This document shows positions 8,884-55,879 of a DNA stretch of 64,000 bases, one piece after another. A program made the position numbers and the translations under genes. The first letter of the stretch is position 1; the number at the start of each line of letters is the position of its first letter. Location: NCBI GenBank assembly GCA_944381495.1, contig CALWLJ010000006.1, positions 62,001 through 126,000 on the forward strand, given 5' to 3'. The notes under the pieces were generated by a model. That model worked only from the letters and a program-made list of their open reading frames with translations, was not told the origin of the DNA and made no database searches. Source of the DNA: an uncultured Mediterraneibacter sp. Its GTDB lineage: Bacteria; Bacillota; Clostridia; Lachnospirales; Lachnospiraceae.

Positions 8884-8910
8884 AACAGGTAGTCAGATAC
8901 AATTGGATAG

Positions 8911-9003
8911 CGACTGCGGGGAGCTGGCCGAAGCCGGCTGAGAGGAGACTTCTTCGTCTCGACCCGAAACCTGATTTGGATAATGCCAACGTAGGGATGA
9001 GTG
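8911..9003 (+). promoter_or_regulatory. TPP riboswitch (THI element)
   Basis: The conserved THI-box parts are present in order: CGGGGAGC, a short P3 stem, GGCTGAGA at 8936-8943, then ACCTGATTTGGATAATGCCA and CGTAGGGA at 8991-8998. The aptamer binds thiamin pyrophosphate. It lies upstream of thiC and is followed by an intrinsic terminator, so it most likely stops transcription when TPP is plentiful. Confidence 0.96.
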
Positions 9004-9013
9004 AAGAGAGTTT

Positions 9014-9039
9014 CAGAGATGCCCTGCGCATCTCTTTTT
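9014..9039 (+). terminator. Riboswitch-controlled intrinsic terminator
   Basis: AGAGATGC pairs with GCATCTCT around a CCTGC loop, followed by a T run. It sits about 10 nt after the TPP aptamer, which makes it the expression platform for thiC. Confidence 0.88.
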
Positions 9040-43458: not shown

Positions 43459-44943
43459 TTAATTCCAGGGATTTTCTGAGGGATATCTCACGCCTTTCGG
43501 CTGATTATACCCGATCTCCTCTACCGGCACGCCGATATATTTGAACACCTCAAACAGTGCCTTGCCGAAATGTCCGAATGCCACTGCCCCGTGATGTGGG
43601 AAGTTCTTCTCGATCAGCACATGGCGGTAGAACCTTCCCATTTCCGGGATGGCGAACACCCCGATGGAACCGAAGGACTTCGTCGCCACCGGAAGGACTT
43701 CGCCCTGTGCCACATAGGCGCGGAGCTTATTGTCGGATGTACTCTGCAGACGATAGAATGTAATATCTCCCGGCACAATGTCTCCTTCCAGTGTGCCCTG
43801 TGTTACTTCTTCAGGCAGGGTCCTTGCCATGATCATCTGGTACTTCATCTCGCAGAAGGAAAGTTTTCCGGAGGCAGTGTTGCCGCAGTGGAATCCCATA
43901 AATGTATCCTTCTGAGTATACGGGAATTTTCCTTCGATACTTTCCTTGTACATGTCAGCCGGAACGGTATTGTTAATATCCAGAAGAGTTACCGCATCCT
44001 GGCTGACTACGGTTCCGATGAATTCACTCAGAGCGCCGTAAATATCTACCTCGCATGATACCGGGATACCCTGTGCTGTCAGACGGCTGTTCACATAGCA
44101 GGGAACGAACCCGAACTGTGTCTGAAATGCAGGCCAGCATTTTCCTGCGATAGCCACATATTTCCTGTATCCTCTGTGATCCTCCACCCAGTCTTTCAGT
44201 GTGATCTCATACTGAGCCAGCTTGGCCAGGATTTCCGGCTTCTTATTTCCAGCGCCCAGCTCTTCTTCCATCTCTTTTACAATTCCCGGGATCCGCTCGT
44301 CTCCCGCATGCTTGTTAAATGCCTCGAACAGATCCAGCTCAGAATTCTCCTCGATCTCAACGCCGATATTGTACAGCTGCTGGATCGGTGCGTTGCAGGC
44401 AAGGAAGTTCAGCGGGCGAGGGCCGAAGCTGATGATCTTCAGACTGTTCAGTCCCACTACAGCCCTGGCGACAGGCTCAAATTCATGGATCATATCCGCA
44501 CATTCCTCAGCGGTTCCCACCGGATATTCCGGAATATATGCTTTCACATTACGCAATTTCAGATTGTAGCTTGCATTGAGCATTCCGCAGTAAGCGTCGC
44601 CCCGGCCCTGGACCAGATCATTCTGTGTCTCTTCTGCAGCGGCGATGAACATCTTCGGTCCATCGAAATGTTTCGCCAGCAGTGTCTCGGAAATCTCCGG
44701 TCCGAAGTTTCCAAGATAAACGACCAGCGCGTTGCATCCTGCTTTCTTAATGTCTTCCAGAGCCTGTACCATATGGATCTCGCTCTCCACGATACAAACG
44801 GGACATTCATAAACCGTTCCCTCTCCGTATTTCTTTGTGTACGCGTCGATCAGCGCTTTCCTCCTGTTCACAGACAGGCTTTCCGGGAAACAGTCCCGGC
44901 TCACTGCTACGACTCCAATCTTCAGTTCTGGCATGTTGTTCAT
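43459..44943 (-). CDS. L-fucose/L-arabinose isomerase-family protein
   Basis: A 494-residue protein. The layout is that of the fucose/arabinose isomerase superfamily: an N-terminal Rossmann-like domain (KIGVVAVSRDCF), a middle domain with FGPRPLNFLACN, and a C-terminal domain with metal-binding residues in FMGFHCGNTASGK and the His pair in PHHGAVAFGHFGK. These enzymes interconvert aldoses and ketoses such as L-fucose, D-arabinose or L-arabinose. With the downstream kinase it would make a phosphorylated ketose. It was probably preceded directly by the DUF4867 gene before an insertion sequence landed in the gap. The substrate is uncertain. Confidence 0.82.
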   Translation of the reverse strand: MNNMPELKIGVVAVSRDCFPESLSVNRRKALIDAYTKKYGEGTVYECPVCIVESEIHMVQALEDIKKAGCNALVVYLGNFGPEISETLLAKHFDGPKMFIAAAEETQNDLVQGRGDAYCGMLNASYNLKLRNVKAYIPEYPVGTAEECADMIHEFEPVARAVVGLNSLKIISFGPRPLNFLACNAPIQQLYNIGVEIEENSELDLFEAFNKHAGDERIPGIVKEMEEELGAGNKKPEILAKLAQYEITLKDWVEDHRGYRKYVAIAGKCWPAFQTQFGFVPCYVNSRLTAQGIPVSCEVDIYGALSEFIGTVVSQDAVTLLDINNTVPADMYKESIEGKFPYTQKDTFMGFHCGNTASGKLSFCEMKYQMIMARTLPEEVTQGTLEGDIVPGDITFYRLQSTSDNKLRAYVAQGEVLPVATKSFGSIGVFAIPEMGRFYRHVLIEKNFPHHGAVAFGHFGKALFEVFKYIGVPVEEIGYNQPKGVRYPSENPWN

Positions 44944-44961
44944 TTTCTTATCCTCTCTTTC

Positions 44962-44974
44962 TTAAAAATATAGT
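44962..44974 (+). repeat. Left target-site duplication of the insertion sequence
   Basis: TTAAAAATATAGT is identical to the 13 bases at 46742-46754 on the other side of the insertion. Confidence 0.85.
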
Positions 44975-46741
44975 TAGGCGTTTGCGAAACGCCATAAACC
45001 GCATAAATACGGTATTTTCTGTTACTAAAATACAAATAACTCCTCACCTGATATGGTATAATAGAGTTGCCAAAAACTATAAACCATCATCCAAGAAAGG
45101 AGTTATTCTGATACCTATGATACCATATAAACAGCTTTCTCTGGCAGATGTTTTTTCAGATTGCCAAGAAAAATTTGAAAATGACAAACCTGCGTTTCTT
45201 TCCCTATTAGAAACTCATATCGATATTGATAAAATTATTCCGATTTCTTTCAGAAATCATTTTTATGCATCAACGGGCAGAACCCGTAAATACCCCTTGC
45301 AAGCTTTCCTGTGGGCTTTGATCATTCAACGTATTTTCTCAATTCCTACAGACCAGCTTCTCCTGACTTTTCTCGCTTACTCAAAACCGCTTCGCGAATT
45401 CTGCGGTTTTACCAAAGTCCCAGATGCTTCTAAAATCACTCGTTTCAAACAAGACTTTTTAGATGATCTTCAGCTCGTATTTGATCAACTTGTTGATATT
45501 ACAGAGCCTATCTGCCAGGCCATTGATTCCGCAAAAGCAGATATGACCATCTTCGATTCTTCCGGAATTGAAGCATTCGTTACCGAAAATAATCCTAAAT
45601 ATGCCCATCGGATCATTCGGCAGCTTAAGACATATGCGAAAGCTCAGGGCTTTGATAAATCCTACGATCCTTATAAGGCTGCCTACGCTTCCATGCCCTC
45701 CCACGCTTCTGCGAATCCTGAAATCAAGCAACTGTATATCAATGGACATTTTTGCTACGTCTTCAAGTTCGGCATCGTTACCAATGGCCTTGGCATCATC
45801 CGCCATATTTCTTTTTATAACAAAGATTTTATGGCCTCTCATCCTGACATCGTTGTGAAAAAGAAATCCGATTCTCCTGACGAAGATAAATGTGTTCACG
45901 ATTCAAAACTTTTGATCCCAACACTTAAGGACTTCTTTTCCAGACATCCTCTGATCAATCCGAAAACATTCCTTGGTGATGCGGCTTTTGATACTGTACA
46001 GCTCTATAAGAGCCTTCTTACCGGTGATACTTTTGGTAAGGACAAGCATTTCCAGAAAGCATATATTCCACTAAATGCAAGATCAGGTCTTGAAAATCAG
46101 GATTATATCATCAACGAAAACGGGATCCCCTGTTGTCCTCATGACCCTTCGCTCCCGATGAAGTACGAATGCACTTCTAAACTAAGAAGCGGTGTTACCA
46201 GATTCATGTTTGTCTGTTCCAAAATGATATGGGCTTACGATAGATCCACCCAAAAAGCTCATAGACAATGCTGTTGCGAAAACCCTTGTACCACTTCAAG
46301 ATGCGGTCGTATGGTTTATGTCTATCCGGAAAAGGATCTGCGCGCTTATCCCGGAACGATCCGCGGAACCGAAGAATGGGATAACACCTATAAAACAAGG
46401 ACTGTTGTCGAAAGAGATATCAACCACATCAAAGATAATCTCTGTCTTGCAGGCCGCCGAACACAAAATGAGAAGACGCTGCATGCTGATCTGATCCTTG
46501 CGGGTATCACACAGCTCATTACTGTTGTTCTCGCCGATAAAATCAAACATCATGAATACATTCGAAGCTTAAAGCCACTCATAGCATAGGACTTACCACT
46601 TTCATAAAGCCGATAGCTTATTAAAGTGCGCCTAAAATGTCCGATTATCCACTTTTCATTCCAGAATTCATGCTCTACACGAAGTCTTCTTTGCTTTGGT
46701 TCAAGATTACGACCAAGCTTCGCGAGTTTCGCAATTATCTA
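44975..46741 (+). mobile_element. IS4-superfamily insertion sequence, complete, 1767 bp
   Basis: The element is flanked by an exact 13-bp direct repeat. Its ends share an imperfect inverted repeat, TAG-4-TTGCGAAAC-1-C, read inward at both sides. It carries a single intact transposase. Preserved direct repeats point to a recent insertion. A GGCGTTT/AAACGCC hairpin at the left end and TTCGCGAG-type sequences at the right may block incoming transcription. It lies between the DUF4867 gene and the isomerase gene and points against them. Confidence 0.92.
45117..46589 (+). CDS. IS4-type DDE transposase
   Basis: A 490-residue transposase. The first Asp is in MTIFDSSGIEAF, the second in TFLGDAAFDTV and the Glu in YKTRTVVERDINHIK, which matches the Y-(2)-R-(3)-E-(6)-K signature of the IS4 superfamily exactly. 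The C-terminal part contains a Cys-rich stretch (HRQCCCENPCTTSRCGR) that may bind zinc. ATG 45117 lies 14 nt after AAGGAG, a long distance, so a non-ATG codon a few positions upstream (CTG 45108 or ATT 45105) may be used. A TATAAT box lies near 45056. The gene appears intact and could be active. Confidence 0.93.
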   Translation: MIPYKQLSLADVFSDCQEKFENDKPAFLSLLETHIDIDKIIPISFRNHFYASTGRTRKYPLQAFLWALIIQRIFSIPTDQLLLTFLAYSKPLREFCGFTKVPDASKITRFKQDFLDDLQLVFDQLVDITEPICQAIDSAKADMTIFDSSGIEAFVTENNPKYAHRIIRQLKTYAKAQGFDKSYDPYKAAYASMPSHASANPEIKQLYINGHFCYVFKFGIVTNGLGIIRHISFYNKDFMASHPDIVVKKKSDSPDEDKCVHDSKLLIPTLKDFFSRHPLINPKTFLGDAAFDTVQLYKSLLTGDTFGKDKHFQKAYIPLNARSGLENQDYIINENGIPCCPHDPSLPMKYECTSKLRSGVTRFMFVCSKMIWAYDRSTQKAHRQCCCENPCTTSRCGRMVYVYPEKDLRAYPGTIRGTEEWDNTYKTRTVVERDINHIKDNLCLAGRRTQNEKTLHADLILAGITQLITVVLADKIKHHEYIRSLKPLIA

Positions 46742-52435: not shown

Positions 52436-52484
52436 TTTTCTTTTATAATTTTTACATACTTTGGACACATTTTCTGTCTATACT
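52436..52484 (+). promoter_or_regulatory. Promoter and upstream box of small RNA copy 1
   Basis: A box TTTTCTTTTATA (52436-52447) starts 20 nt before the hexamer ATACTT (52456-52461), which is 17 nt before TATACT (52479-52484). The same spacing is found at all three copies. A related ATAAGA lies about 19 nt upstream of the end of the box. Confidence 0.6.
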
Positions 52485-52490
52485 AAATCA

Positions 52491-52638
52491 CAGATAGTTG
52501 GTTAACAACTATCTCCCCCCTCATAAAGTTGACATCTTGGGGCAATCCCCAAGATGTCGCACTTTACTCTCATTCCTTTAGATATAACTATAAAACCATC
52601 GAACACCCGCAGGCCTGACGGTCCGCGGGTGTTCGCTG
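52491..52638 (+). ncRNA. Small RNA family member, copy 1
   Basis: The predicted transcript starts near 52491. Hairpin 1 is AGATAGTTG/CAACTATCT (52492-52514). It is followed by the C-rich tract CCCCCCTC (52515-52522). Hairpin 2 is GACATCTTGGGG/CCCCAAGATGTC (52531-52558), extended by TAAAG and CTTTA outside. The invariant block GCACTTTACTCTCATTCCTT follows (52559-52578). Hairpin 3 is CGAACACCCGC/GCGGGTGTTCG (52600-52635), then CTGTTCT as a weak terminator tail. Two further copies lie downstream. It is judged a trans-acting RNA because conserved pairing survives sequence change between copies. Confidence 0.75.
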
Positions 52639-52707
52639 TTCTACTCCATTTTTGCTGTTTTCAGATCCTGCTGTTCTATTTTTCTTCCTTCACGATCCGT
52701 TATTTGA

Positions 52708-54039
52708 TTACTCAATAACCGCACTTGTCAGAGAATGAGGCTCCGCAGTCAACTTGAACATTTCTCCTGCAATCCGTATATTGCATTTCATCGTCTCATC
52801 TGTTCTATTCAGAAGCAATGCCGTCACTGAACCATCCGGATTCTCCCATGCTGTAAAATCCAGTCTGTCCGTATACCGGGTTGTCCCCAGCCTGACTGCG
52901 CCTTTCTTAATAAAATGGGTAAAATGCCAATAATACCGCTGACAGTTTCTCCGCTCCAGCCTTTTTTCTTTTATATCAAACAAAAATGGCGCATCGCAGA
53001 AATTCCCCACATGATTCGGACCGCCCTCACTGTCAAGCAGAATATTCCAGTCATAAAACGCACACATCCCGGCATTCATATTTCCGATCATGTCATGTGC
53101 CAGCCGCTCGGCATTCGTCCGCTGATCCTCCTTATCATATTTTCCAAACTCCAGACAACTCTCCGAAAGGATCAGTTTTTTCCCCGGATACTGACGTCGC
53201 ACAAGCTCCAGAGCCTCAAAATGATCTCCGCTGTACCAGTGAAATGCCGCACCCGCGATCAGCTCATCTGTTGTATCGTCAATAATATCTCTTGCCCGCT
53301 CATAAAGCCTCTCTTTATTATGATCCCAGATAAACAGTTCTATCCCGTCAAGCCCATGTCTCTTCAGCGCAGGAACCAGATAATCCCTCAGGAATACCTT
53401 TTCCTCCTCCGGTGTATACACACAGGAATCCCACTCCTGTACTGCTTTCGGCTCGTTCTGCACAGACATGCGATTTACTTCATATCCCCGTTTCTGAAAT
53501 TCTTCCACATAACGGCAGAGATATTCCGCCCAGCGTTCTCTGTACTCCGGTTTCAGCGAGCCTCCTTTTTTTCTCTGCCCATTGGTCTTCATATATGCCG
53601 GCGGAGACCATGCGGAAAGCATGATCTTCAGCTTTTTCCCTGCCTTTCTCTGAGCAGCCTCCAGCAGAGGCATAATGTATCTTTCTGTATCGGCGAAAGA
53701 AAATTTTTCCAGCCCCGCATCATCTTCATCCGGATCCGCCTCATACATATGTGTACTGAAATCACAGCTGTCCATATGGATCCGGACCTGGCCATAGCCC
53801 ATCTCATCCTCATTAAAATATATATTCAGCAGCTCCTCCTGCTGTGCCGGCGACATTAGCGAAAACACATACCCTGCCGCATCTGTCACAGCGCCTCCAA
53901 ACCCTTCAAATGTCTGATCCTTTCCTTCTCTGTAAATATTCAGTACCTGGTTTTCTTCCCCCGGATCCTTTTCTGATACAATACTTTCCTGACAAAGTGT
54001 TCCCGTTTCCGTCGTTGTATAAATCTCAGCTTTCATCAT
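52708..54039 (-). CDS. GH30-family glycosidase
   Basis: A 443-residue cytoplasmic enzyme with a TIM barrel and a beta side domain. FEGFGGAVTDAAG near 45 is the GH30 N-terminal signature, the acid/base Glu is in MSVQNEPKAVQEW near 195 and the nucleophile Glu is in LILSESCLEFG near 290. The C-terminal beta strands (about 385-443) end in LTSAVIE. GH30 includes beta-glucosidases, xylosidases and glucosylceramidases; the specificity is open. GGAGGGC lies before the ATG. It is flanked by small RNA copies 1 and 2. Confidence 0.9.
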   Translation of the reverse strand: MMKAEIYTTTETGTLCQESIVSEKDPGEENQVLNIYREGKDQTFEGFGGAVTDAAGYVFSLMSPAQQEELLNIYFNEDEMGYGQVRIHMDSCDFSTHMYEADPDEDDAGLEKFSFADTERYIMPLLEAAQRKAGKKLKIMLSAWSPPAYMKTNGQRKKGGSLKPEYRERWAEYLCRYVEEFQKRGYEVNRMSVQNEPKAVQEWDSCVYTPEEEKVFLRDYLVPALKRHGLDGIELFIWDHNKERLYERARDIIDDTTDELIAGAAFHWYSGDHFEALELVRRQYPGKKLILSESCLEFGKYDKEDQRTNAERLAHDMIGNMNAGMCAFYDWNILLDSEGGPNHVGNFCDAPFLFDIKEKRLERRNCQRYYWHFTHFIKKGAVRLGTTRYTDRLDFTAWENPDGSVTALLLNRTDETMKCNIRIAGEMFKLTAEPHSLTSAVIE

Positions 54040-54068
54040 GTTGCCCTCCTTTTCCTCGCCTTCATATT

Positions 54069-54266
54069 ATGATGTTGGGGTCAAAAGCCCTCAACTATGA
54101 TGCCTGCGGATTGTTACGTGCTGCGCACTCCCACAATCCTGCCCAATATTCGCATATCGTGGGATATGCATCCCACTTTTATGCTCATATCAGGGCGGCT
54201 CCCAAGGTCTTTCACCCACTTACGAGCAAGCTCATGTGGGTTCAGCTCTTTTGACTCTGGTATCAT
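54069..54266. repeat. 198-bp element with imperfect terminal inverted repeats
   Basis: The left end ATGATGTTGGGGTCAAAAG and the right end CTTTTGACTCTGGTATCAT are inverted matches in 14 of 19 bases. Inside, GTGGGAT/ATCCCAC and CCCAC/GTGGG form hairpins. No protein is encoded. It resembles dispersed intergenic repeats of Lachnospiraceae, by recollection, and lies between the GH30 start and small RNA copy 2. Confidence 0.5.
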
Positions 54267-54390
54267 ATTATTATAACATACCGATTTTCTATATCAAAAT
54301 TCTCATATTATAAACACATATCTCAGAACTTTTCACGGTTTTTATAAAAGCATATTTATAATTTGTTTACTACTATTTTAGATTTTTACC

Positions 54391-54439
54391 TTTTCTTTTA
54401 GAAAACACACATATTTTCGTCACAATTTACGGCTATACT
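54391..54439 (+). promoter_or_regulatory. Promoter and upstream box of small RNA copy 2
   Basis: TTTTCTTTTAGA (54391-54402) begins 20 nt before ATATTT (54411-54416), which is 17 nt before TATACT (54434-54439). TTTTAGA also occurs at 54376-54382, exactly 20 nt before its second copy in the box, which looks like a two-site regulator target. Confidence 0.62.
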
Positions 54440-54445
54440 ATGTAT

Positions 54446-54590
54446 CAGATAGTTGATAAACAACTATCTCCCCCCTCATAAAGCATGGCACCTGAGTGCA
54501 GTGAAAGGTGCCGCACTTTACTCTCATTCCTTTAGATAACTATAAAACCAACAGAAAGCCGTCAGTTAAAAACTGACGGTTTTCTGCTGT
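54446..54590 (+). ncRNA. Small RNA family member, copy 2
   Basis: Hairpin 1 is AGATAGTTG/CAACTATCT with an ATAAA loop (54447-54469), followed by CCCCCCTCAT. Hairpin 2 is GGCACCT/AGGTGCC (54487-54512), different in sequence from the other copies. The invariant block GCACTTTACTCTCATTCCTT follows (54513-54532). Hairpin 3 is CAGAAAGCCGTCAGT pairing with ACTGACGGTTTTCTG (54552-54586). The gene lies between GH30 and the FAH protein. Confidence 0.75.
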
Positions 54591-54740
54591 TCCGGTTTAT
54601 TTCAGATCGGTATTCCCCGCAGACTTTTCAGCGCATGGTGTCCCTGTCGTATAATTCCAATAGAATTTACTTCTTCTCTCCGCCATGGTAAAATGGATTT
54701 ATGCCAAAATTGCAAAACCAACAGATAAAGGAGCAGAACA

Positions 54741-55631
54741 ATGAAACTTTATACTTACCAGTCATCCGACAAAACAAACCGGATCGGCATCGGATTTTCC
54801 GAAAAGCCCGGATATCTGTGGCCGGCAGAGAGCTTTGGCCTCTCTTTCTCCGACATGAACGACCTGATTACTTCTCTTACTCTCCCGGAACTTCTCCGCA
54901 CAGTCAGCATCGAAAACGCATCGGACACAGAAGCAATAAACCTTAACCGTATCCGGCTGATGGCGCCGATTCCCCATCCGTCCCAGGATATTCTCTGCCT
55001 GGGCATCAACTATGCAGCTCACGCTGAGGAATCCGCCCGCTTTCACAAAGACGCTTTTATCGTAAACCAGGAGAAGGCTGTTTATTTCAGCAAACGGGTC
55101 CACACCGCCAGCGGATACGGAGATCCTATTCCCCTTCATGAAAATCTGACTGACAGCGTAGACTATGAAGCCGAACTTGCTGTCGTCCTGGGGAAAGATG
55201 CAAAGAATGTAACTGCTGCTGACGCCTCAGATTATATTTTCGGCTATACGGTCATAAACGATGTTTCGGCCAGAGATCTCCAGACAGATCATAAGCAGTG
55301 GTACTTCGGGAAATCCCTGGACGGCTTCACGCCGATGGGGCCATGCATTGTCACGGCAGATGCGATTGCCTTCCCACCTGTTCTGGATATCTGCTCAAGA
55401 GTCAATGGAGAAGTCCGTCAGAACAGCTCCACAGGTCTCCTGATCCACTCCATTGACGCTATTATCGCGGAACTCTCCGCAGGCATGACACTGAAGGCCG
55501 GAACTATTATCGCTACCGGAACTCCCGCAGGCGCTGGAATGGGATTCACTCCTCCCCGCTTTCTGAAAAAGGGGGATGTCGTAGAGTGCAAGGTGGAGAA
55601 TATCGGGATCCTCAGAAATGTAGCAGAGTAA
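54741..55631 (+). CDS. Fumarylacetoacetate hydrolase-family protein
   Basis: A 296-residue protein. The FAH fold is shown by ILCLGINYAAHAEE near 90, DYEAELAVVLGKDAKNV near 140, FGYTVINDVSARDLQ near 170 and GTPAGAGMGFTPPRFLKKGD near 260. The acidic residues that bind Mg2+ are in place. Such enzymes hydrolyse or isomerise acylpyruvates and diketo acids, or decarboxylate oxaloacetate. The substrate is not readable and no catabolic partners are adjacent. AAAGGAGCA precedes the ATG. It lies between small RNA copies 2 and 3. Confidence 0.88.
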   Translation: MKLYTYQSSDKTNRIGIGFSEKPGYLWPAESFGLSFSDMNDLITSLTLPELLRTVSIENASDTEAINLNRIRLMAPIPHPSQDILCLGINYAAHAEESARFHKDAFIVNQEKAVYFSKRVHTASGYGDPIPLHENLTDSVDYEAELAVVLGKDAKNVTAADASDYIFGYTVINDVSARDLQTDHKQWYFGKSLDGFTPMGPCIVTADAIAFPPVLDICSRVNGEVRQNSSTGLLIHSIDAIIAELSAGMTLKAGTIIATGTPAGAGMGFTPPRFLKKGDVVECKVENIGILRNVAE

Positions 55632-55676
55632 AATTTACGAAATCGAAAATCTTAACCTCATCTTAAGAATTTTTCG

Positions 55677-55725
55677 TTTTCTTTTAGACTTCACTCATAC
55701 TTCTGTCACATTTTCCTTTTATACT
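55677..55725 (+). promoter_or_regulatory. Promoter and upstream box of small RNA copy 3
   Basis: TTTTCTTTTAGA (55677-55688) begins 20 nt before ATACTT (55697-55702), which is 17 nt before TATACT (55720-55725). TTAAGA at 55663-55668 stands 20 nt before the TTTAGA in the box, repeating the layout of copy 2. Confidence 0.62.
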
Positions 55726-55731
55726 AGGACT

Positions 55732-55879
55732 CAGATAGTTGATAAACAACTATCTTCCCCCTCATTAAGCAAGACATCCACAAATCGGATGTCGCACTTT
55801 ACTCTCATTCCTTTATAATAAACTTTAAACCAACGAAAACCCGCCGGCCTGCTGCCGGCGGGTTTTCGCGTTTTATTTT
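55732..55879 (+). ncRNA. Small RNA family member, copy 3
   Basis: Hairpin 1 is again AGATAGTTG/CAACTATCT (55733-55755), followed by TCCCCCTCAT with one C changed to T. Hairpin 2 is GACATCC/GGATGTC (55773-55793). The invariant block GCACTTTACTCTCATTCCTT follows (55794-55813). Hairpin 3 is CGAAAACCCGCCGGC/GCCGGCGGGTTTTCG (55834-55868) with a CGCGTTTTATTTT tail, the best terminator of the three. Confidence 0.78.

Follow-up and report, generated by a model that had tools for sequence, protein, structure and literature searches.

Three short plus-strand stretches lying between genes of an uncultured Mediterraneibacter sp. raise the question of whether they are copies of a single small RNA (sRNA) gene and, if so, how such a gene might be switched on and what its RNA might do. 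They are found on contig CALWLJ010000006.1 of assembly GCA_944381495.1, within the 64,000-nucleotide (nt) stretch that we analyzed (here called the window), and their predicted RNA starts, at about 52491, 54446, and 55732, are those given in an original prediction made from the sequence alone. Lachnospiraceae, the family to which this bacterium belongs, rank with the most common bacteria in the guts of humans and animals, and among the papers listed by our full-text literature searches we noticed no study of a trans-acting sRNA in this family. The best reading of the elements is still the one first proposed, a family of structured intergenic sRNAs that probably terminate their own transcription. 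An RNA gene with its predicted structure and promoter pattern is supported by the present data. We also think it fairly probable, from the sequences at hand, that each element is a response-regulator-activated gene for a trans-acting sRNA whose C/CU-rich seeds would pair with ribosome-binding sites.

A structured RNA in three copies

Each copy resembles a complete transcription unit in which a T-rich stretch, a box of repeats 11 bp apart, and the hexamer TATACT precede the RNA, and the similarity among the copies, beyond what the original prediction used, reaches about 70 nt upstream, across the promoter. The RNA consists, in order, of hairpin 1, a C tract (CCCCCCTCA in copies 1 and 2, TCCCCCTCA in copy 3), hairpin 2, an unpaired CU-rich stretch (ACTCTCATTCCTTTAGATAACTATAA, the second half of which differs in copies 1 and 3), and a terminator-like hairpin. 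The stem of hairpin 1, AGATAGTTG/CAACTATCT, is identical in all three copies, as had been claimed. So is the block GCACTTTACTCTCATTCCTTTA, whose invariance was correctly recognized and whose length, put at 20 nt, is 22 nt. When up to 3 mismatches are allowed, a 21-nt part of this block has three matches in the window, compared with a mean of 0.00 and a maximum of 0 in 100 dinucleotide shuffles. Throughout the 3.19-Mb assembly, which is 91% complete, the 21-nt block was again found three times, always inside the window, with 0 control matches.

The predicted folding of every copy surpassed that of 200 out of 200 shuffled versions (z scores in Table 1), and hairpin 2 is closed by AAAG/CUUU in the predicted folds of copies 1 and 2. 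Hairpins that change in sequence from copy to copy and still pair had been central to the original prediction. Within these copies by themselves, both sides have changed and pairing is kept in 10 of 38 predicted pairs. GACATC is common to hairpin 2 of copy 1 and copy 3, so that helix varies less among the three than had been claimed. Covariation among homologs, the lack of which was to count as refutation, is present: in a model-fitted alignment of 133 distinct sequences, 33 of the 38 pairs show two-sided changes with pairing kept, and 95.9% of cells are paired, compared with 84.8% in shuffles and 37 to 46% when the partners are slid.

Because this alignment, which includes a few weak matches, leans towards the structure to which it was fitted, hairpin 2 was tested independently. 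Its insert was cut out by fixed anchors from the 67 representatives that were left when sequences were dereplicated with a similarity score of 0.86 as the limit. The mean folding energy was -15.2 kcal/mol, compared with -4.8 for shuffled inserts, and the two halves of each insert paired at a mean of -15.4, compared with -7.7 for halves swapped between elements. RNAalifold, run on a plain MAFFT alignment of the 67, recovered only hairpin 1 and part of the terminator, since the length of hairpin 2 varies; covariance model R2 for this reason lacks hairpin 2. Column conservation across relatives is found in the unpaired stretches, and the helices drift.

A conserved peptide was considered and rejected. 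Of 129 elements, 46 have a TTG frame that stays open for 20 codons or more, and 61 contain some closed open reading frame (ORF) of at least 20 codons. A peptide is nevertheless unlikely because the frames between the conserved core and the second conserved block vary, the spacing falling in all three frames (49, 41, and 38 of 128 elements). Also rejected was a structural switch through AUAACUAU, a part of the second stretch that resembles the 3' strand of hairpin 1; an element with a changed hairpin 1 (locus L105) keeps AUAACUAU.

A promoter with an 11-bp repeat

The columns upstream of 130 long elements are periodic, with a lag of 11 bp (z = 3.83, matched by 0 of 2,000 column shuffles), and no other lag from 3 to 16 falls below a p value of 0.08. 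Both a -10 hexamer and the stem are recognized in 145 of 149 elements. Of these 145, 122 have TATACT as the hexamer; the distance from the -10 to the stem is 7 nt in 127 and 6 or 8 nt in 18. From this nearly fixed distance, transcription is expected to start at the foot of hairpin 1. A TTGACA -35 is absent from the element promoters. The promoter looks as if it were activated by a regulator, putatively of the OmpR/PhoB type, bound next to -35.

A weight matrix built from these elements gave 273 matches above 14 bits in the 2.42 million strand positions of the window and the relatives' loci, a set that is itself biased towards the elements. The core accompanies 234 of them. The 39 without the core amount to 32 distinct sequences; by eye, 30 of these represent this RNA with an altered C tract and 2 a different small gene described below. 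No protein gene under the same promoter was found with the matrix or with the copy 1 pattern; in the bacterium's own genome, that pattern, searched with up to 3 mismatches, recovered copy 1 alone and is too strict for copies 2 and 3.

Two types of promoter, TTTGGACACA (type A) and TTTTGTCACA with CTCATA (type B), separate copy 1 from copies 2 and 3 and recur in relatives. As judged by eye, the types tend to go with different hairpin 2 sequences, possibly a split between paralogs.

The Pho box of the PhoP regulon was rejected as the origin of the repeat, as the pstS promoters of the genus carry a motif of different spacing and letters. A related but different repeat, TTTACAnAGATTTAACA, is present in 26 of 30 pstS loci of the genus; where this Pho box has a single base separating TTT from ACA, the sRNA box has two, and the base immediately before ACA is mostly G. 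The regulator is probably not PhoP. In passing, we observed that PstS of the genus appears circularly permuted (L154, 904-1827, and other pstS loci), in that, within a single ORF, the portion that aligns with profile residues 162-295 comes ahead of the portion that aligns with residues 40-156.

Distribution and conservation of the core

Covariance model R1 was built from the three window copies and run on relatives, as the original prediction had advised. Of 37 genomes from the genus, counting the one that holds the window, it matched 36 (G024 being the sole miss), with 1 to 6 matches per positive genome, some of which are weak opposite-strand shadows. Among 24 genomes of other families in the order, it matched one, weakly and in part. 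A pattern scan of genome contigs found at least 119 stretches, nearly all from Lachnospiraceae by record title; Mediterraneibacter, Dorea, Coprococcus comes, Faecalicatena, Claveliimonas, Extibacter, Schaedlerella, Sellimonas, and others are among the matches listed, and records of Ruminococcus torques, C. comes, and Dorea carry the sRNA. A record titled Fusobacteria (L148), also among the matches listed, was rejected after failing the structure test. With up to 2 substitutions allowed, the core led to 149 distinct sequences, 130 with the second block and 19 without it, and some of these 19 are chance matches in genes.

A sequence-heavy covariance model matched at least 108 of 397 genomes sampled from the family (93 of 334 genera), many of them weakly, and at least 41 with 80 bits or more; as seven candidates were scored per genome, these counts are lower bounds. 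The 20-nt core, with up to 2 mismatches, is present in 81 of the same genomes (72 genera), at 120 places compared with 5 for the reversed pattern. The weak covariance matches and the core-pattern matches were inspected in part, and a few of the 120 are not elements; one core-pattern locus (L192) failed the hairpin-plus-terminator test, and another (L195) is without a simple hairpin. When the sample was widened to the class, a 16-nt core with up to 1 mismatch was found in 15 of 391 genomes, one of them the window's own, and none of the 15 loci in the other 14 genomes, which lie outside the family, passes the hairpin-plus-terminator test. In these samples, the sRNA appears confined to Lachnospiraceae.

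Most elements were found through the core, which inflates its apparent conservation. An independent figure comes from 74 elements recognized by the second block alone in loci retrieved with the two covariance models: the core is exactly CTATCTCCCCCCTCAT in 50, has one C changed to T in 6, and is different in 18, where it is mainly the C tract that is longer or shorter. Conservation of the core is thus strong without being absolute.

Short and intermediate forms

Many matches in the family are about 80 nt long. In this short form, a promoter like that of the long elements precedes hairpin 1 and CTATCTCCCCCCTCAT, and a terminator comes after them. Automatic rules distinguished 170 long elements, 31 short ones, and 19 sequences that are neither; four of the short forms are doubtful, L112 resembling chance by eye and L040, L063, and L190 being intermediates. 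On the minus strand of L063 (C. comes) and L190, hairpin 1, the C tract, and hairpin 2 occur without the second stretch, and another copy in the same locus is of the long form. The short form, with hairpin 1, C tract, and terminator, looks like a minimal version to which the long form adds hairpin 2 and the second stretch.

A different small gene was seen near copies of the sRNA. Its promoter is of the kind seen before the sRNA, it carries TTTTTCATA(A)CTTTCCTCAAAA and ends in a terminator, and it lies at L203 and L191 (reverse complement, about 17-170 and 502-650); the same sequences recur in L178, L109 and L180, L044, as well as in L313 and L312. Its two distinct sequences were found in 2 of the 397 family genomes, and it is a possible sibling sRNA with a UUUCCUC seed. 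Elsewhere, on a metagenomic contig (L268), two tandem short forms are followed by a sub-threshold copy of the Clostridiales-1 RNA (44.7 bits).

A proposed function and the tests of it

We propose that every element is a gene in its own right, encoding a regulatory sRNA some 150 nt long. An OmpR/PhoB-type response regulator would bind the 11-bp direct repeats, which are like TTTAAACATAC-TTTGGACACA in type A and like nnCTCATACTTnTGTCACATTT in type B, and would activate a promoter that has TATACT and no TTGACA -35. Transcription would start on or beside the base that opens hairpin 1, placing a stem at the very 5' end that should shield the RNA from 5'-end decay, and would end at the intrinsic terminator. 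The unpaired CCCCCCUCA and ACUCUCAUUCCUUUAGAUAAC could then pair in trans with purine-rich ribosome-binding regions of mRNAs and block translation. Multiple copies would add dose while differing in promoter type and hairpin 2. Here the class and identity of the regulator, its signal, the 5' protection, the Shine-Dalgarno pairing, and the direction of effect are what we infer, and the post-transcriptional mechanism is suggested by the anatomy of the RNA. Two papers describe pyrimidine-rich motifs of Gram-positive sRNAs as typically binding targets at Shine-Dalgarno sites (PMC4132741, PMC4409812), with UCCC-type motifs taking part in target binding in LhrC, RsaE, FsrA, and others (PMC4132741).

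Several results weigh against this proposal. Consensus scans listed none of the three promoters, as expected for promoters with no TTGACA -35, and a plus-strand terminator for copy 3 only. At least 6 pairs form in all 67 hairpin 2 inserts, a count that says little by itself, given that 78% of shuffled inserts form at least 5. The sRNA box differs from the Pho box of the genus. In favor of the proposal, seed 1 (the C tract) weakly prefers start regions to gene interiors, by -1.16 kcal/mol compared with -0.26 ± 0.41 for 30 shuffled seeds (477 ORFs, found, like those in the neighbor and strand counts below, by a simple ORF caller), but at least one of the 30 equaled it. For seed 2 (the CU-rich stretch), the preference over the same ORFs, -1.95 compared with -1.54 ± 0.61, is not beyond the shuffles. 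Complements to seed 1 have 13 matches in the bacterium's own genome, 3 of them the sRNA genes, compared with 5 for the control, and none of the 13 is at a likely ribosome-binding site. Complements to seed 2 have 38 matches, again including the 3 sRNA genes, compared with 59 for the reversed pattern. Because this total is below the control, single matches, such as those before a start codon among the 30 that were inspected (e.g., at L293, L299, L300, L304, and L309), cannot be told from chance, and no convincing target emerged from these searches. Finally, Hfq was not found in this genome, at its 91% completeness.

A reading in which the RNA binds a protein deserves to be weighed beside these results, although we regard it as unlikely. 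Hairpin 1 and CUAUCUCCCCCCUCAU would form a protein or ribosome site, and the copies would titrate that protein, as RsmZ/CsrB RNAs titrate CsrA. A decoy of this kind would suit a core that is common to many genera and makes up nearly the whole RNA in the short form, and a seed 2 without start-site preference. The conserved part, however, consists of unpaired pyrimidines, as antisense seeds in Gram-positive bacteria usually do; the core varies (exact in 50 of 74, C to T at one place in 6, other changes in 18); and no candidate protein is known.

A broader reading, which we hold to be doubtful, is that the family is the main output of one conserved, Hfq-free signaling system of Lachnospiraceae, with a response regulator whose promoter type serves almost exclusively sRNAs. 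The core would then be shared by many genera because it binds a fixed partner in the cell, either ribosome-binding regions generally or one protein, and not a handful of mRNAs. Variation of the core in 24 of the 74 elements found independently of it makes this less likely. If true, the reading would mean a family-wide post-transcriptional switch in dominant gut bacteria. The promoter of this RNA is recognizable, its seed is conserved, and its range is broad yet limited, so that the regulator, signal, and targets can be sought directly in species such as R. torques, C. comes, or Dorea.

Less probable readings: leader, mobile element, or untranslated region

We consider it quite improbable that the elements are cis-acting leaders or attenuators of the next gene. 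A series of hairpins ending in a terminator has the look of an attenuator as well, and the same-strand FAH gene follows copy 2 at a distance of about 150 nt. Of 34 short and other elements, 18 are followed by an ORF on their own strand and 16 by one on the opposite strand, a count that also tells against a trans-acting gene. For the long form, a leader is unlikely because the nearest downstream ORF is on the opposite strand in 104 of 154 elements (same strand, 35; none in the locus, 15). Downstream genes are of differing kinds, and no conserved antiterminator pairing was noticed, no systematic search having been made.

It is highly improbable that the copies are mobile or repetitive elements (like repetitive extragenic palindromes or miniature inverted-repeat transposable elements) spread by transposition, or phage cargo. 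Several copies per genome, tandem copies (39 of 40 neighboring pairs are on one strand), and related copies on five metagenomic contigs filed as phage and one IMG/VR viral contig would fit such an origin. The copies found in 3.19 Mb number only three, the promoter is conserved, covariation is present, and four of the phage-filed records, when read, were unannotated and marked UNVERIFIED. The location is often shared, next to GH25 in 46 of 188 elements, and a plasmid match for copy 2 was not found. The promoter, the shared location, and the plasmid result also disfavor a known mobile repeat with no promoter, the alternative that the original prediction had named. Among the contigs filed as phage or viral, L265 (MT839987) and L264 (IMG/VR) carry the long form, and L266 (MT836006), L267 (MT836226), and L268 (MT839274, with two) carry short forms; these contigs may be bacterial DNA.

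Least probable of all is an RNA derived from the 3' untranslated region of a GH25 lysozyme transcript, a reading prompted by GH25-LysM being the nearest upstream same-strand gene of those 46 elements and contradicted by the promoter at a nearly fixed distance from the stem before 145 of 149 elements and by the different neighbors at other copies and loci.

Comparison with known RNAs

At the gathering score, Rfam 15 had no family over the three copies, its window matches being Clostridiales-1 and TPP only, and 20 relative loci yielded two tRNAs only, neither over an element. The Rfam search that the original prediction had called for thus gave sub-threshold matches alone over the copies. Under permissive settings the best over a copy was MIR169_6, a plant microRNA model (34.7 bits compared with a gathering score of 54; E = 7.3e-5), followed by NrrF (27.6; gathering score, 60), rnk_pseudo (23.4; gathering score, 55), and others. 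Such matches fall on copies 2 and 3 and some short forms, mostly on terminator hairpins, and we read them as chance matches to strong stems.

The likeness to streptococcal csRNAs and listerial LhrC, drawn in the original prediction, holds as an analogy; it does not extend to sequence homology with LhrC or to the CiaR repeat of the csRNAs. LhrC and RsaE each have an Rfam family, and neither LhrC nor RoxS/RsaE is among the Rfam matches up to an E value of 10 over the window copies. LhrC1-5 of Listeria monocytogenes is likewise a multi-copy intergenic sRNA. According to PMC4132741, a single-stranded UCCC-containing stretch of LhrC binds a target, with a predicted Shine-Dalgarno block, and the copies have a common upstream response-regulator element. 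A UCCC-type motif is single-stranded here also, CCCCCCUCA being unpaired after CUAUCU and conserved. Unlike LhrC, the present RNA opens with a hairpin at its 5' end and has two distinct seeds and a hairpin 2 that varies. LhrC depends on the response regulator LisR, and the 11-bp repeat here is consistent with some response regulator.

The CiaR repeat has the consensus TTTAAG-N5-TTTAAG. With up to 2 mismatches, a repeat of this type has 3 matches in the 64 kb compared with 4.55 expected, a difference from the csRNAs; copy 3 has one of the three 65-81 nt upstream, on the minus strand, and copies 1 and 2 have none. According to PMC4211561, csRNAs occur as 2 to 6 siblings per genome, distal or tandem, and csRNA5 has an insert of more than 50 nt relative to its siblings. 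Our three copies are likewise multiple siblings in one genome, and the insert of the long form relative to the short form resembles that of csRNA5.

RoxS/RsaE, described in PMC4409812 as a conserved sRNA whose C-rich regions block the ribosome-binding site and which is activated by ResDE/SrrAB, is similar in its conservation and C-rich regions; the ResD site lies around -65 in RoxS, whereas the repeats reach the -35 region here. The Clostridiales-1 RNA (RF01699), a small RNA of related bacteria, differs in sequence and structure and was not found at the gathering score in the 20 loci scanned. Full-text literature searches returned no paper that we recognized as describing this sRNA, and a query with the sequence returned papers unrelated by title. 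A bare computational prediction of this RNA may be among the 3161 intergenic candidates reported by Fremin and Bhatt in 2021 (PMC8040213). We rate the sRNA as a new family that resembles LhrC and the csRNAs in outline and fails their tested sequence and promoter features.

Coordinates and other features of the window

Pfam confirmed the neighbors originally named for the three copies, namely genes for GH25 with LysM, GH30, FAA hydrolase (FAH), and peptidase M20.

Table 1. Predicted features of the three sRNA copies in the window. R1 bit scores are not independent for these copies, from which the model was built.
Feature	Position	Strand	Basis
Copy 1 promoter, repeat box TTTTACATACTTTGGACACATTT and -10 TATACT (52479-52484)	52449-52484	+	Column conservation, 11-bp periodicity
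Copy 1 sRNA gene	52491-52638	+	Fold z -10.1; R1 model 162.1 bits
Copy 1 hairpin 1 (AGATAGTTG/CAACTATCT), predicted 5' end	52492-52514	+	Fold
Copy 1 C tract CCCCCCTCA, proposed seed 1	52515-52523	+	Unpaired in minimum free energy and centroid folds; conserved
Copy 1 hairpin 2, AAAG/CUUU closing	52524-52566	+	Fold, covariation
Copy 1 CU-rich unpaired stretch, proposed seed 2	52567-52596	+	Fold, column conservation
Copy 1 terminator-like hairpin	52597-52638	+	Fold, covariation; absent from consensus terminator scan matches
Copy 2 promoter, repeat box ACACATATTTTCGTCACAATTT and TATACT (54434-54439)	54405-54439	+	Promoter matrix, periodicity
Copy 2 sRNA gene	54446-54592	+	Fold z -7.0; R1 model 175.1 bits
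Copy 2 C tract CCCCCCTCA	54470-54478	+	Fold
Copy 2 hairpin 2, GGCACCT stem	54479-54520	+	Fold, paired changes
Copy 2 CU-rich unpaired stretch	54521-54548	+	Fold
Copy 2 terminator-like hairpin	54549-54589	+	Fold; plus strand absent from consensus scan matches
Copy 3 promoter, repeat box CACTCATACTTCTGTCACATTTT and TATACT (55720-55725)	55692-55725	+	Promoter matrix, periodicity
Copy 3 sRNA gene	55732-55870	+	Fold z -9.3; R1 model 161.4 bits
Copy 3 C tract TCCCCCTCA	55756-55764	+	Sequence
Copy 3 hairpin 2, GACATCC stem	55773-55793	+	Fold, paired changes
Copy 3 terminator, 15-bp perfect stem then CGTTTTATTT	55834-55868	+	Fold, consensus terminator scan

The window's Clostridiales-1 RNA (RF01699, 122.9 bits) lies at 54098-54265 on the minus strand, between copies 1 and 2 and upstream of the GH30 gene, and its TPP riboswitch lies at 8907-9015 on the plus strand (59.2 bits). 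A large plus-strand ORF at 44835-46589 resembles, by eye and from its translation, an IS1182-type transposase.

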